Positions 28,884 through 34,425 of a DNA stretch of 34,425 nt are shown here, piece by piece (position 1 is the stretch's first letter; every line of letters begins with the position of its first letter). The position numbers were made by a program, and so were the translations under genes. The stretch covers positions 844,437 to 878,861 of the forward strand of contig NW_001865044.1 of assembly GCF_000002865.3 (NCBI RefSeq), read 5' to 3'. The notes beneath the pieces are model-generated. The model saw only the letters and a program-made list of their open reading frames with translations. It was not told where the DNA came from and did no database searches. The DNA is from Monosiga brevicollis MX1. Lineage: Eukaryota > Opisthokonta > Choanoflagellata > Craspedida > Salpingoecidae.

Positions 28884-30031
28884 CTAGTCAAAGTGCTTCA
28901 TGGAACGACCGCGTCCTCTAGATTCGATGATGGCGAGCGAGAAATCACAACAGGCAATATTGAGACACTGCGTTCGAGGTGACGCAGTCCTCGTTGGTGA
29001 ACCGCTCGAGCAGAAGTCAACGTACCGGCCACCCCCTCGTCCGCCACGGCCACGGCCACCGCGACTGCCTCGGCCTCGCCCTCCGCCGCGACCACTGCCG
29101 CCGCGACCTCTTCGGCCTCCGCCGGCTTGTTTAGACTTGTTACGATCCACGAGCTTCTGTGCCTTGGCAAACTTGGCTTTCTTGGCCTTTTCCTGCTCAG
29201 CACTTGCCTTGCCACGCTGAATGTTGAGTCAAGAGGTGGTGAGTTGGCTGAACATTGCCCATGGCGATGGGGAGGCTGCCCGTTACCCACCTTGCCACCA
29301 GAGCTAGCTCGCCCTGCAGGCTTGGGCGCCTCGGCCTCGAGATCCTCGCCAGCGGGTGGTCCATCTGCCAACTCGAGCGGCGTGACCTGCACGGTTACCT
29401 TGGACTCGGCAGTATCAAATCGGCTCGTTTCGCTATCGCCCGCAACTGGGGCCGACTCGGCTGGTCCGTGGACGCGTTTATAGGGCATGGATGCATCGAG
29501 TCCTCATGAGCTAGAGTAGATGAGAGGGCGAGGGCAGGACAGGCAAGCGTGCTTGGGTGAACGGAAGAGGAGCAGCAGTTTACATACTCAGAATGGCGGG
29601 GAGTTGAGGCAGCTTCTGTAGGCGCTTTTCACGCTGCGCGCGCTTCTACAGAACCCAGACAGATACACAAGCAGTTTGAGTCGAGACTCCGAGCCTTTCT
29701 GAACCAGGCATGGCCTGTTTGAGCTCATCAAGCTTTACAAGCGAGCGAACGGTTGGGCGCGCACCTCTTGGCGCGCCTGACGGCGAGCTTCCTGGACCAG
29801 CTTTTCAGCTTCATCCTTTGCAGCCTGCTTTCGCTCGAGCTTGCGTTTGTGAAAGCCGGTGATAAACTCGCGCCGACTTTCGGAATCAAAGTTCACGACC
29901 AACTTGTTGCTTCGATTGATACGCTTACGATGCCGCAGTGCAGCGCGGTTCGCCTCATCGGTCGGGGCCTCGTGCGTCGGCACCCGGCCGCCACCCCCGC
30001 GGCCCTCGTCGTCGCTGTTCCAATCGCTCAT
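28884..30031 (-). CDS. NOL12: NOL12/Rrp17 family ribosome-biogenesis protein
   Basis: Five exons in phase: 30031-29765, 29645-29588, 29502-29291, 29216-29026 and 28917-28884, giving 253 aa. The family signature is clear in exon 1: NKLVVNFDSESRREFI followed by FITGFHKRKLERKQAAK and a Glu/Arg/Lys coiled coil. NOL12/Rrp17 proteins act in the nucleolus in pre-rRNA processing; yeast Rrp17 is linked to 5'-3' trimming of large-subunit rRNA. Exon 3 is an acidic linker. Exon 4 carries KASAEQEKAKKAKFAKAQKL and then an RGG-rich tail of about 13 RG or RGG units, ending SMKHFD after a tiny last exon. RGG tails bind RNA and are arginine-methylation targets. This extension is not typical of NOL12. The gene is divergent from the fumarate reductase fusion (751 bp). 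Confidence 0.85.
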
Positions 30032-30087
30032 GCTGCCGCTTTCCTCGTCGCGAATAAAAATGCTGACAACGCTCCGTCACGCTCGAT

Positions 30088-30307: not shown

Positions 30308-30348
30308 ACAGCTTCGGCGCTGGCGCCGCTGCTGCAACAACAACAACA

Positions 30349-30363
30349 CTCTCTTTCTCTCTC

Positions 30364-30445
<82 letters not shown>
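30349..30445. repeat. (CT)n microsatellite upstream of the fusion gene
   Basis: About 45 CT units with GTCTGTCTGT interruptions, about 340 bp upstream of the fumarate reductase start, pyrimidines on that gene's coding strand. Confidence 0.9.
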
Positions 30446-30451
<6 letters not shown>

Positions 30452-30782: not shown

Positions 30783-33700
30783 ATGAGCAGTACGTTGTTT
30801 GTGCTTCTGCTTGTGCCGCCGTGTTGTGTTGACGGTGACAGGCTACCCTGTCCGTCGCCAGCAATGGCCTCGTGCTCGGGCTCATTCATGCGTGCCATGT
30901 CAGATCAAGTCATCGTGGTGGGCGGTGGCCTGGCCGGTCATGCCGCTGCCCATACCGTGCTTGAGGCCGGTGGTGCTGTACTGCTTCTGGACAAGTCTCC
31001 ATTTTGCGGTGGCAACTCCACCAAGGCCACCTCGGGCATTAACGGTGCTGGCACACGTGCGCAGCGTGCCGCCAAAATTGACGATTCAGCTGAGATCTTT
31101 GAGCAAGATACCCTCAAGTCTGCCGCAGCTGGTGTGTCAAGCTAGGCCGCTTGTTTTGGCACGGTTGCCACAAAAGTTTGAGACACGCGCCCCTCGCCTC
31201 GATGCTCACAAGCCAAATGAATCTTCTTCACTCAGGCGCCCGACCCGAATTGATCCGCGCCCTGACGCACCAGTCCGGCCCGGCAGTCGAATGGCTGAGG
31301 GATGCATTTGGCCTGAAGCTTGACCTAGTGGGCCAAATGGGGGCCCACTCGCGCCCTCGCACCCATCGTGGTGGCGAGCGCTTCCCGGGCATGATGATTA
31401 CCTATGCCTTGATGGAGCGCTTCGAAGCCACGTGCAAGGCCTTGCCTCACCGCGCGAAGCTTGTCAACAAAGCTACCGTCACCAGCCTGTTGACCAACCA
31501 AGCCGGCGAGGTGTGTTCAATGCACACGCCGTCGACTCCGTGATCGACCCACCTGACTGTGCGATGAACTTAATTGCGTAGACCATTGGCTGCGAGTACA
31601 AACTGGATGGCAAAATCTACAAAGCTCACGGTGCCGTTATTCTGGCCACCGGTGGCTTCGCCGCTGATTTTGGCAATGCCTCACTGTTGGCAGCGGTGCA
31701 AGACAAATGGAGGTGTGTATGCCGAGTGGACACCATGAAAGTACACTTTGCATCACGCCCACGCCTCCACAAACTTGGATCCGATTTCTTTCAAACAATG
31801 CGCTCTCCTTGCACCTTGTCTGGTCAGCCAACTCCCAATGTGGAAGTCGATCCCCAATTTGCCCAAGCTCAATGACATGCCCACCACAAATGGACCACAC
31901 TGCACGGGTGACGGCATCAAGGTGCGGCAATTTGCTTACGATCTGCTCGAGACCTGGACGATGGGTGATTCTGATACTGCTTGGTGCGGCACAGCTGGCC
32001 CAAGCGCTGGGTGCCGAGCTGGCAGACATGGAGTTTGTGCAAGTGCACCCGACCGGCCTGGTGGACCCTCGTGAACCTGATGCCAAGGTTCGTAATCAAA
32101 GTCTACTGCGGGCAGGACCATTATATGTTCGCTCCATATGCCCACCAAACCTCGTCCTTTGTGACGTGTAGGTCAAGTGGCTTGCCGCCGAAGCACTGCG
32201 CGGCTCTGGTGGTTTGCTTCTTGACGCTCGTGGTCAGAGGTTTTGCAACGAACTTGGCAAGCGCGACTATGTCAGCGGCCGCATGTTCCAGTCAGTGCTG
32301 CGCCCCGACTGCTCCAGCACTTTGTTTTATTTTTTGAATTTCTATTCTGTTTACTGACTCCCAGTTTTGCAACCCTCCACGAATGAACAGAAATGCGGGT
32401 CCGTTTCGCCTTGTGCTGAACAGCCGCCAAGCCGCCGAGTTTGAATGGCATTGCCATCACTACGTTGGCCGCGGAGTTATGCGCAAATTTGCCAGTGGCC
32501 ATGAGCTGGCTCGAGACATGGGCGTATCTATCGATACTCTTCGCGCCACGTTTGATGCATACAATGCTGCAGCCAGCAAGCAAGCTGATCCCTTTGGCAA
32601 GACGATCTTCAACAACGTTCCATTCCGCGTGGATGACGTCTACCATGTGGCTCAGGTGACCCCGGTGGTGCACTATACCATGGGTGGCTTGGCTTGCAAC
32701 GACCAAGGGCAGGTGCTGGGCAAGGCAGGTCAGGCCTTGCCCGGCCTCTTCGCCGCTGGTGAAGTCATTGGCGGCATCCATGGGCATAATCGCTTGGGTG
32801 GTTCTAGCCTTCTGGACTGTGTCGTCTACGGCCGCTTGGCTGGCAGTGCTGCTGCTCGCTTTCTCCTGGAACGCGCAGTGACGCAGGCAGGTCAAGGTCA
32901 AGGTGGCACGACTTCGGGTAAGAACCTGGTGGAGATTGACTGGCAGCACCGCACCATCACTTTGCATGCTGGCAATGCCACCGGGGTGGGCGCGGCCATG
33001 GGCGCAGACGAAGCCCCTGCTGAAACCAGTACACCTGGCCCAGAGGCGCCGCCTGCACCGCCAAAGGAGCTCAAGACGTACACCATGGAAGAAGTGGCCA
33101 AGCACAACACTAAAGGCGACTGTTGGGTGGTGGTGCACGACAAGGTGTATGACCTCACCACCTTTCTAGAGGACCACCCTGGTGGTGCGGCATCCATTGT
33201 GGCGTATGCGGGCAAGGAAGCCACCAAGGCGTTCGACATGCTGCACAGCGCCGACATTTTGGACAAGGTAAGACCATGATTGTTGCTGACAGTGGCGTTG
33301 GCAGTGGTGCCGGTGCTATTGGCTCTGTTATGAACGATGGTGGCTTGCTCGTGCCTGGGTGCTATCTAGTATGCGGCCGACTTTTTGGTGGGCGAAATTC
33401 GCAGTGTCAGTCGACGACCGGCCGCGTCCACGGTCGAGCTCACTATGGAGGAGGTGGCTAAGCACAACACCAAGGAGGATTGCTGGATGGCCATTCATGG
33501 GCGCGTCTACGATCTGACCAGCTTCCTGAATGTACGTTGACAGGGCTCAAGTCGCAACTCATACCCCCAGGCCAGCGACCGTGTCAGATGCACCCGACTT
33601 TTAATTTTGGGGACGCGGCCGTGCGTATATAGGACCATCCGGCGGGCTCTAAGATCTTGCTCAAGTATGCCGGCCAGGATGGTACGGCTGCCTTTGACGC

Positions 33701-34425
33701 AGCAGGTCATCCGCCGGACATTGTACAATCCCTCGGTCTTGATCATCTCCACATTGGTGATGTGGCGGGGTGCGTCTTGTCGAGACACACTTTCGCCCCC
33801 ATCTGCTGTTTTTTTTTGTTTTGTTTTTTTTTCCGGCGCAGCCATGTCGCACCGATGCCAACCAACTCCACTGAAGCATTGGGATGGGTCTGGTCTCATA
33901 AATGCCTGTCTTTCTTCACTGGGTGCATCGTCGCGATTGCAGCTATGCCAAAGCTTCATCGGGCACCACGGAACGCAAGGCCCTCGGCGGCGAGCATCGT
34001 GATACACAGGTGAGAAAGCCACGGCCATGACCAAAGGTGCTTCAAAGATTTGGCCGCTCACTCCACACTTGACTTTTCAAACTTGGTTGCTCACATTGTT
34101 TTGCTTCTCTAGATTGAAGGTATTCCACCCCTCGAGGCCATCTTGGACTTGTGGGACTTTGATGCCGTTGCGCGCAAAGTTCTGTCACAACAGGGCTGGG
34201 CCTACTACTCCTCGGGCTCGGATGACGAGGTCACGCTGCGCGAGAATCAAAATGTCTTTGCTCGCATCTGGATGCGCCCGCGAATTCTGGTATGGTCAGC
34301 ATGTCCAGGTTTCGATTCTTGGCTTTTCTTCGCTCGGCCTTGTTTGCTTGTGTGTACTTGCTACGTGTGTGACCTAGCTTGCATGTGCTGTCTGTGGCTC
34401 AACCAAGCGCCCCCCCCCCCCCCCC
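30783..34425 (+). CDS. Fumarate reductase-cyt b5-cyt b5-FMN dehydrogenase fusion (partial)
   Basis: Exons: 30783-31131, 31236-31510, 31582-31712, 31828-31921, 31995-32087, 32172-32290, 32391-33267, 33370-33531, 33633-33769, 33943-34009 and 34113-34289, all in phase, 827 codons so far; the 3' end lies beyond the window. FAD domain: [20 protein letters not shown], then substrate motifs [29 protein letters not shown] and [16 protein letters not shown] of soluble fumarate reductases (Osm1/flavocytochrome c type). First cytochrome b5: DHPGG with the second heme His in DMLHS. Second b5: DHPAG and AAGHPP. Then the N-terminus of a flavocytochrome b2-like FMN dehydrogenase: [19 protein letters not shown], including the active-site Tyr. 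Electrons could pass from lactate or another 2-hydroxyacid to fumarate. The first start (ATG 30783) gives a hydrophobic leader if a 72-nt in-frame intron (30790-30861) is retained. Confidence 0.85.
34410..34425. repeat. poly-C homopolymer at the right edge
   Basis: The window ends in 16 C inside an intron of the fusion gene, mirroring the C run at the left edge. Confidence 0.9.

Follow-up and report, generated by a model that had tools for sequence, protein, structure and literature searches.

A fumarate reductase-cytochrome b5-cytochrome b5-FMN dehydrogenase gene in Monosiga brevicollis: a possible single-chain lactate:fumarate oxidoreductase

In the choanoflagellate Monosiga brevicollis, one gene appears to join a fumarate reductase flavoprotein domain (FRD), two cytochrome b5 domains (b5-1 and b5-2) and a flavocytochrome b2-type FMN dehydrogenase (FMN_dh), in this order. 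All the heme ligands and the six residues of the fumarate site are present, and FMN_dh is visible at both ends and followed by a stop codon. From these domains and residues, we lean towards a single-chain L-2-hydroxyacid:fumarate oxidoreductase, most likely working with L-lactate. In such an enzyme, the C-terminal FMN_dh would strip two electrons from lactate to give pyruvate, its FMN would pass them singly to the heme of b5-2 and then to that of b5-1, and b5-1 would hand them to FAD in the Osm1-type domain at the N-terminus, where fumarate would be reduced to succinate. The fusion protein may work as a soluble redox-balancing route at low oxygen.

Gene model and fumarate reductase domain

The gene lies at the end of the window, that is, the whole stretch of DNA analyzed (34,425 nucleotides of M. 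brevicollis MX1, contig NW_001865044.1, positions 844,437 to 878,861). In line with this species, a Munc18 exon of the genome agrees at 57/57 residues with PDB 2xhe, an UNC18 structure from M. brevicollis, while two PDZ exons had no identical counterpart among solved structures, and of two pieces of an SM gene on C56, one matched Vps45 and the other nothing. The locus is a real gene: the spliced 11-exon model (30783-34289) keeps an open frame through 827 residues, using ten GT-AG introns, picked by reading frame and homology, and one further donor (the eleventh), and all residue numbers within the gene refer to this model. Its features, assigned from the splice model and Pfam, are the following.

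30783..31131, + strand: exon 1, N-terminal extension and start of the FAD-binding Rossmann fold ([10 protein letters not shown])
31236..31510, + strand: exon 2, fumarate reductase flavin domain
31582..31712, + strand: exon 3, fumarate reductase; alternative donor after 31695
31828..31921, + strand: exon 4, fumarate reductase, motif [11 protein letters not shown]; alternative acceptor, start at 31847
31995..32087, + strand: exon 5, fumarate reductase, His301 (Osm1 H281)
32172..32290, + strand: exon 6, fumarate reductase, Glu321, Arg324 and Arg345 (Osm1 E301, R304 and R326)
32391..33267, + strand: exon 7, end of fumarate reductase (His448 and Arg488, Osm1 H435 and R477), linker and most of b5-1 (heme His616 and His639), in a single unspliced frame
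33370..33531, + strand: exon 8, final residues of b5-1 and first half of b5-2
33633..33769, + strand: exon 9, second half of b5-2 (heme His702 and His726; HPAG replaces HPGG)
33943..34009, + strand: exon 10, linker between b5 and FMN domains
34113..34289, + strand: exon 11, start of FMN_dh (profile positions 1-40; Tyr800 aligned with the second Tyr of the flavocytochrome b2 motif WAYYSSG)
34290..34425, + strand: intron start (GTATGG), then a poly-C run leading into an assembly gap
C51:880003-880212, outside the window: C-terminal part of FMN_dh and the -SRL end, placed by order, strand and profile fit

The exon 3/4 junction has two in-frame options, 31712/31828 or 31695/31847, the latter dropping 12 residues (815 vs. 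827) and being nearer to Osm1 in that loop by eye. In-frame Met codons at model residues 1, 28, 36 and 39 are all candidate starts. A signal peptide at the N-terminus ([11 protein letters not shown]...) would be possible if translation started at 30783, and it was set aside, as this stretch is not part of the conserved domain and would be at odds with the C-terminal SRL.

By profile and active site, the N-terminal domain belongs to the soluble fumarate reductase family (flavocytochrome c/Osm1), and fumarate reduction is the predicted activity. In the spliced protein, the Pfam FAD_binding_2 profile covers residues 43-494 (E 5.9e-77, 260 bits against a cut-off of 20.4), and the NCBIfam flavocytochrome c model TIGR01813 scores 360.7 bits, above its cut-off of 285.45. 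The best solved match is PDB 5glg, “Fumarate reductase 2” (E 1.3e-86), which we take to be Osm1, followed by Shewanella Fcc3 entries at E about 1e-61 to 1e-58, and the six catalytic residues of Osm1 (H281, E301, R304, R326, H435 and R477) are all kept, as H301, E321, R324, R345, H448 and R488.

Cytochrome b5 and FMN dehydrogenase modules

Pfam finds Cyt-b5 twice in the spliced protein (E 1e-50 for both together). The joining of FRD to b5 is independent of splicing, because the unspliced exon 7 alone, read directly from genomic 32392-33267, scores for both FAD_binding_2 (81.9 bits) and Cyt-b5 (79 bits). The 827-residue model and Pfam bear out what a sequence-only reading of this DNA had claimed, namely, the order FRD-b5-b5-FMN_dh in one splice-consistent gene with both heme His pairs kept, His616/His639 in b5-1 and His702/His726 in b5-2. 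The spacing of these pairs is 23 in b5-1, beside FRD, which is the flavocytochrome b2-like value, and 24 in b5-2, beside FMN_dh, so that the two spacings depart from the simple picture of an “FRD-b5 plus flavocytochrome b2” fusion; b5-1 is identical to flavocytochrome b2 at 34/64 positions. These spacings and the HPAG of b5-2, in place of HPGG, count against the proposed function.

Profile positions 1-40 of FMN_dh fall at residues 788-827 (Pfam, E 7.6e-7), after which the window runs out at a gap in the assembly (1139 N). On the far side of the gap, the FMN_dh profile is picked up again at positions 260-348 (116.4 bits) in a frame that ends in -SRL followed by TAA, and from their order, strand and profile fit, we infer that both flanks belong to one gene and one transcript. 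Profile positions of about 42-258 fall inside the gap, and with them the catalytic His, Arg, Lys and Asp (the catalytic residues of flavocytochrome b2 are His373, Arg376, Lys349, Tyr254 and Asp282), which counts against the proposed function, as the FMN domain may be inactive. The possibility that the missing core lies elsewhere in the genome was rejected, given that an exon-by-exon search with PF01070, with 5/5 candidates scored, gave two FMN_dh matches, both of them the flanks of this gene.

Among solved structures, yeast flavocytochrome b2 is the closest to the C-terminal FMN piece (E 1.3e-33 to 2.4e-33; 58/103 identical), followed by an L-lactate oxidase entry (5.1e-25) and then glycolate oxidase (1e-20), and it also ranks first among solved structures for the N-terminal b5-b5-FMN piece, with 30/56 identical residues in the FMN N-terminal part. 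The position of b5 on the N-terminal side of FMN_dh, as in flavocytochrome b2, is favorable to the proposed function. The earlier expectation that the gene runs on past the window into FMN_dh is supported, as both the C-terminal part of the domain and its stop codon are found there; the earlier interpretation also holds in its module order, heme His pairs and b2-like FMN end, while the reaction itself we still infer.

Related enzymes and rival explanations

The fusion resembles several well-described enzymes in part. The sequence-only reading also named fungi as having a putative fusion of fumarate reductase with a single b5. In its FAD domain, it is like Osm1/Frd1 (PDB 5glg, 6ku6), with 40% identity in the alignment and the six active-site residues, although Osm1 has no heme domain, whereas the fusion adds two b5 hemes and FMN_dh. 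With Shewanella Fcc3, it shares a soluble heme-bearing chain with an FAD fumarate site, but Fcc3 has an N-terminal four-heme cytochrome c domain, while the fusion has two C-terminal b5 domains and a donor flavoprotein in the same chain; Pfam found no tetraheme cytochrome c domain, and the 827 residues that can be read lack a CxxCH motif. With flavocytochrome b2 (PDB 1fcb), it shares the order of b5 then FMN_dh and the bis-His heme ligands, differing in the FRD and second b5 that precede them; flavocytochrome b2 has a single b5, has no fumarate reductase domain and delivers its electrons to cytochrome c. The nearest analogue is the glycosomal NADH-fumarate reductase of Trypanosoma brucei, FRDg, which, according to the literature, likewise unites a soluble fumarate reductase with the flavoprotein that supplies its electrons and ends in a PTS1, with ApbE-like and cytochrome b5 reductase (NADH) domains, whereas the presumed donor of the fusion is a 2-hydroxyacid. 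Both of these domains are absent among the Pfam matches to the readable parts of the fusion. FRDg is, in addition, a precedent for an input module fused to a soluble fumarate reductase.

The hemes of the fusion need not feed its FAD, because Osm1 works without a heme domain and oxidizes free reduced flavins. It is thus conceivable, although rather unlikely in our estimate, that the halves are fused but uncoupled, with the b5-b5-FMN half sending 2-hydroxyacid electrons outside, whether to cytochrome c, to oxygen or to another b5 protein, and the FRD half being fed by free reduced flavins as in Osm1. This would agree with Osm1, which according to the literature has a second flavin site and reoxidizes free reduced FAD, FMN and riboflavin, in addition to the normal acceptor of flavocytochrome b2 being cytochrome c and the FRD-to-b5 linker being about 80-90 residues long and, by eye, rich in Ala, Gly, Pro and Thr. 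On the other side, the donor and acceptor modules stand in one chain with two hemes in between, and the activity of trypanosome FRD is reported to require its fused Cytb5R domain. It is improbable that the flavoprotein end acts on another unsaturated acid of the urocanate, acrylate or cinnamate type: the family is broad and includes the related urocanate reductase 6t85 (E 7.8e-51), and the NCBIfam vinyl phenol reductase model gives a match, at 94.6 bits far under its 600-bit cut-off, but Osm1 and Fcc3 match best and 6/6 of their active-site residues are present.

The locus could also hold two genes, FRD-b5 and a flavocytochrome b2-like gene starting from the in-frame Met at the beginning of b5-2 (ATG 33445, exon 8), which we consider very improbable given that exon 8 carries the end of b5-1 together with the first half of b5-2. 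With exon 8 spliced on to exon 7, b5-1 is complete at 73/74 profile positions (1-73, 91.2 bits), whereas with intron 7 retained the domain stops at 60/74 (83 bits) and a stop codon follows; moreover, exon 11 needs the upstream exons, because no Met precedes its FMN_dh start. Least probable of all is an FMN end that is degenerate, or that is an oxidase producing hydrogen peroxide, with no fumarate-linked oxidation: the assembly gap takes in the catalytic core, the 2-hydroxyacid oxidases of this family are found in peroxisomes, one PDB match of the b5-b5-FMN piece bears such a name and there is a catalase gene in the genome, but both visible ends are well conserved and most similar to flavocytochrome b2, a dehydrogenase.

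Peroxisomal ending, occurrence and significance

The C-terminal PTS1 consensus is [SAC][KRH][LM]. The fusion ends in -SRL before TAA, which fits it, with the chance of any such tripeptide being about 0.3% at the composition of the gene, and this is a hint that the enzyme may reside in peroxisomes and not in the cytosol; it comes from beyond the stretch that the earlier reading covered. A passage of PMC8172628 lists M. brevicollis among the species lacking most PEX proteins, and for Entamoeba, which that list also includes, peroxisomes have since been reported (PMC8629394). In the genome, we found a PEX19 homologue (first match 23.8 bits, cut-off 22.2, interrupted by one TAG; 85.2 bits for the pieces joined by eye; C-terminal CSVM) and a PEX11 homologue (107 bits, with the control Thermotoga matched below the cut-off). 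The Pex14_N and Pex2_Pex12 profiles gave zero matches in the genome, an absence which shows little because the controls, all prokaryotes, were likewise silent. The catalase frame, with its last exon assigned by reading, ends in EQEA before the stop, without a PTS1, which counts for a chance SRL or for peroxisome loss. Hence, regarding an M. brevicollis without peroxisomes and with a chance SRL, the PEX19 and PEX11 homologues speak against and the catalase end speaks for it, and the evidence points both ways.

The searches for homologues and for the architecture covered viral contigs and a genome contig collection; they say nothing on eukaryotes, and uniqueness is not claimed. The b5-b5-FMN piece matched nothing among the viral contigs, and a 3-row FRD alignment gave 80 pattern stretches at 5 loci in the genome contig collection (one Anaerocolumna and four Campylobacteraceae MAGs) with a best-segment identity of 25-33%, a measure that differs from that of the 40% of Osm1. 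Titles and abstract starts in open-licence PubMed Central, together with passages of PMC6472588, PMC10136121, PMC8887013 and PMC3155505, contain no description of this fusion; in the passages of PMC3155505, one Monosiga fusion of a different kind is verified and eight more are predicted, and neither fumarate nor lactate appears in the main text of the M. brevicollis HGT paper.

Oxygen-free electron disposal by soluble fumarate reductases recurs across lineages, with free or Ero1-bound flavin as the donor in yeast, NADH in trypanosomes and a heme chain in Shewanella. A 2-hydroxyacid dehydrogenase as in-chain donor would couple the oxidation of lactate or glycolate directly to the production of succinate, bypassing NAD, quinone and oxygen. 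We suggest, as a tentative possibility, that in the sister group of animals a lactate (or glycolate):fumarate oxidoreductase operates inside the peroxisome, needing no mediator and using fumarate in place of oxygen as the final acceptor. If so, no hydrogen peroxide would be formed and the peroxisome would stay functional at low oxygen. The enzyme would then parallel, independently, the glycosomal fumarate reductase of trypanosomes, with a 2-hydroxyacid instead of NADH, and a peroxisomal enzyme of this kind would bear on the low-oxygen survival of the relatives of early animals.

The fusion gene and its domains

The genome searched (39.5 Mb, eukaryotic, 57 contigs) holds the window at C51:844437-878861, and eleven spliced exons at window positions 30783-34289 give an open chain of 827 residues, the ten GT-AG introns (71-173 bases) being picked on frame and homology. 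The sequence-only reading had claimed one gene with a fumarate reductase flavoprotein domain (FRD), two cytochrome b5 domains (b5-1 and b5-2) with both heme His pairs, and the start of an FMN_dh domain, and this layout was borne out by Pfam and by the heme ligands, His616 and His639 in b5-1 and His702 and His726 in b5-2.

Pfam domains of the 827-residue model
Residues 43-494: FAD_binding_2
Residues 671-744: b5-2, second of the two Cyt-b5 domains
Residues 788-827: FMN_dh, profile positions 1-40

The protein also scored 360.7 bits with the NCBIfam flavocytochrome c model (cut-off 285.45). The two b5 domains are identical at 39/74 positions, which would fit an internal duplication; their His spacing is 23 in b5-1, as in flavocytochrome b2, and 24 in b5-2, that of ordinary b5. 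Yeast Osm1 residues H281, E301, R304, R326, H435 and R477 are described as completely conserved and common to Fcc3, the Shewanella flavocytochrome c3 (PMC6242907), and all six are kept in the aligned FRD as H301, E321, R324, R345, H448 and R488. At the column of R345, Osm1 structure 6ku6 has Ala and 5glg has Arg; by a numbering offset of 30, this column would be Osm1 R326.

At exon 3/4 (31696-31846), there are two GT-AG choices, the shorter dropping 12 residues from a loop that is short in Osm1, and alternative splicing is possible. A putative intron read by eye directly after the first ATG (30790-30841, GTACGT...GACAG) would shift the frame if spliced; possibly it lies in the 5' UTR, the start codon in use being a later one. 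Just upstream of the gene lie a Nop25/NOL12 (nucleolar protein 12) homologue (29738-30034, minus strand, 59.3 bits) and a long CT-rich simple repeat (about 30345-30446).

One gene or two, and the assembly gap

The fusion is unlikely to be an artefact, because exon 7, as unspliced genomic DNA (32392-33267), encodes the last part of the FRD (81.9 bits) together with the greater part of b5-1 (79 bits), exon 8 runs from the last residues of b5-1 into b5-2, and exon 11 reaches the FMN_dh start with no Met ahead of the domain. Two transcripts, the second starting at the in-frame Met at the beginning of b5-2 (33445), are a formal but unlikely alternative: with intron 7 retained, b5-1 is truncated at 60/74 profile positions (83 bits), whereas the exon 7-8 splice takes it to 73/74 (91.2 bits), and the missing Met in exon 11 also speaks against a separate FMN_dh gene. 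Beyond the fusion gene, a profile search of the contigs found no FMN_dh match in the 39.5 Mb.

At the window's end a poly-C run abuts 1139 N, and the full FMN_dh domain expected further on was recovered in part: the C-terminal frame picks up again past the gap (profile 260-348, 116.4 bits) and is spliced to a last exon ending in TTLSRL and a TAA stop, its acceptor being our pick among the AG sites there, but the catalytic core falls inside the gap. About 217 profile positions are absent, compatible with 1139 bases containing introns. The N- and C-terminal pieces are identical to flavocytochrome b2 at 30/56 and 58/103 residues, and in a search of solved structures with the C-terminal piece flavocytochrome b2 leads (1.3e-33 to 2.4e-33), followed by an L-lactate oxidase entry (5.1e-25), glycolate oxidase (1e-20) and hydroxyacid oxidases. 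The function first proposed for the enzyme is plausible; the sequencing gap covers the residues on which it turns.

Proposed reaction and known systems

We infer from the domains that the protein would work like a soluble fumarate reductase with its donor built in. FMN would be reduced by L-lactate or a related 2-hydroxyacid, single electrons would pass from FMN to b5-2, b5-1 and then FAD, and FAD would reduce fumarate; such a transfer would be downhill, because the standard potentials are about -0.19 V for lactate/pyruvate and about +0.03 V for fumarate/succinate.

The nearest design is FRDg, the glycosomal NADH-dependent fumarate reductase of Trypanosoma brucei, described as an ApbE-like domain, fumarate reductase and cytochrome b5 reductase domain fused, with a C-terminal peroxisomal targeting tripeptide (PTS1) (PMC8065229). 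The M. brevicollis protein falls outside this type because Pfam finds neither ApbE nor the reductase domain in its readable parts; it is not Fcc3, since the readable residues hold no cytochrome c domain and no CxxCH, nor is it a plain flavocytochrome b2. A review of cytochrome-bearing flavoenzymes places flavocytochrome b2 (1FCB) and Fcc3 fumarate reductase in separate subclasses (PMC6472588), and here both enzyme classes would share one chain. Our searches of open-access papers brought up no description of the protein; the genome has long been public, so a database entry for the predicted protein probably exists.

A second fumarate reductase and the cellular site

With 15 of 31 candidates scored, the genome gave at least 17 FAD_binding_2 matches, the strongest besides the fusion being a gene on C37, succinate dehydrogenase-like by reading, and an Osm1-like gene (G000:C43:1009000-1016500, minus strand) that matches the fusion FRD at 42% in one alignment and at 190/534 columns in another. 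The Osm1-like protein, its pieces joined by hand, starts with a hydrophobic stretch and ends in HDEL, the ER-retention signal, so that it would be an enzyme of the ER lumen, as yeast Osm1 is; the species therefore seems to have two separate forms, an ER Osm1 and the fusion. Elsewhere in the genome, a Munc18 exon on C47 is identical at 57/57 residues to PDB 2xhe_A (named UNC18), the M. brevicollis protein, and PDZ has at least 146 matches (150 of 197 candidates scored), as would suit a choanoflagellate.

The fusion protein ends in SRL, a tripeptide of the PTS1 type; at the gene's composition, the chance of meeting any tripeptide of this type is about 0.3%. One comparative study counts M. brevicollis among the species without most PEX proteins (PMC8172628). 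The genome has homologues of PEX19 (G000:C55:992939 region, joined pieces 85.2 bits, C-terminal CaaX-like CSVM) and PEX11 (G000:C40:313620-314228, 107 bits), whereas Pex14_N and Pex2_Pex12 gave no match in it, the prokaryote controls being also silent, and its catalase seems to end without a PTS1. Setting SRL, PEX19 and PEX11 against these absences, a peroxisomal site for the enzyme is therefore plausible. Finding PEX19 and PEX11 where most peroxins are listed as missing suggests that choanoflagellate peroxisomes are worth re-examining.
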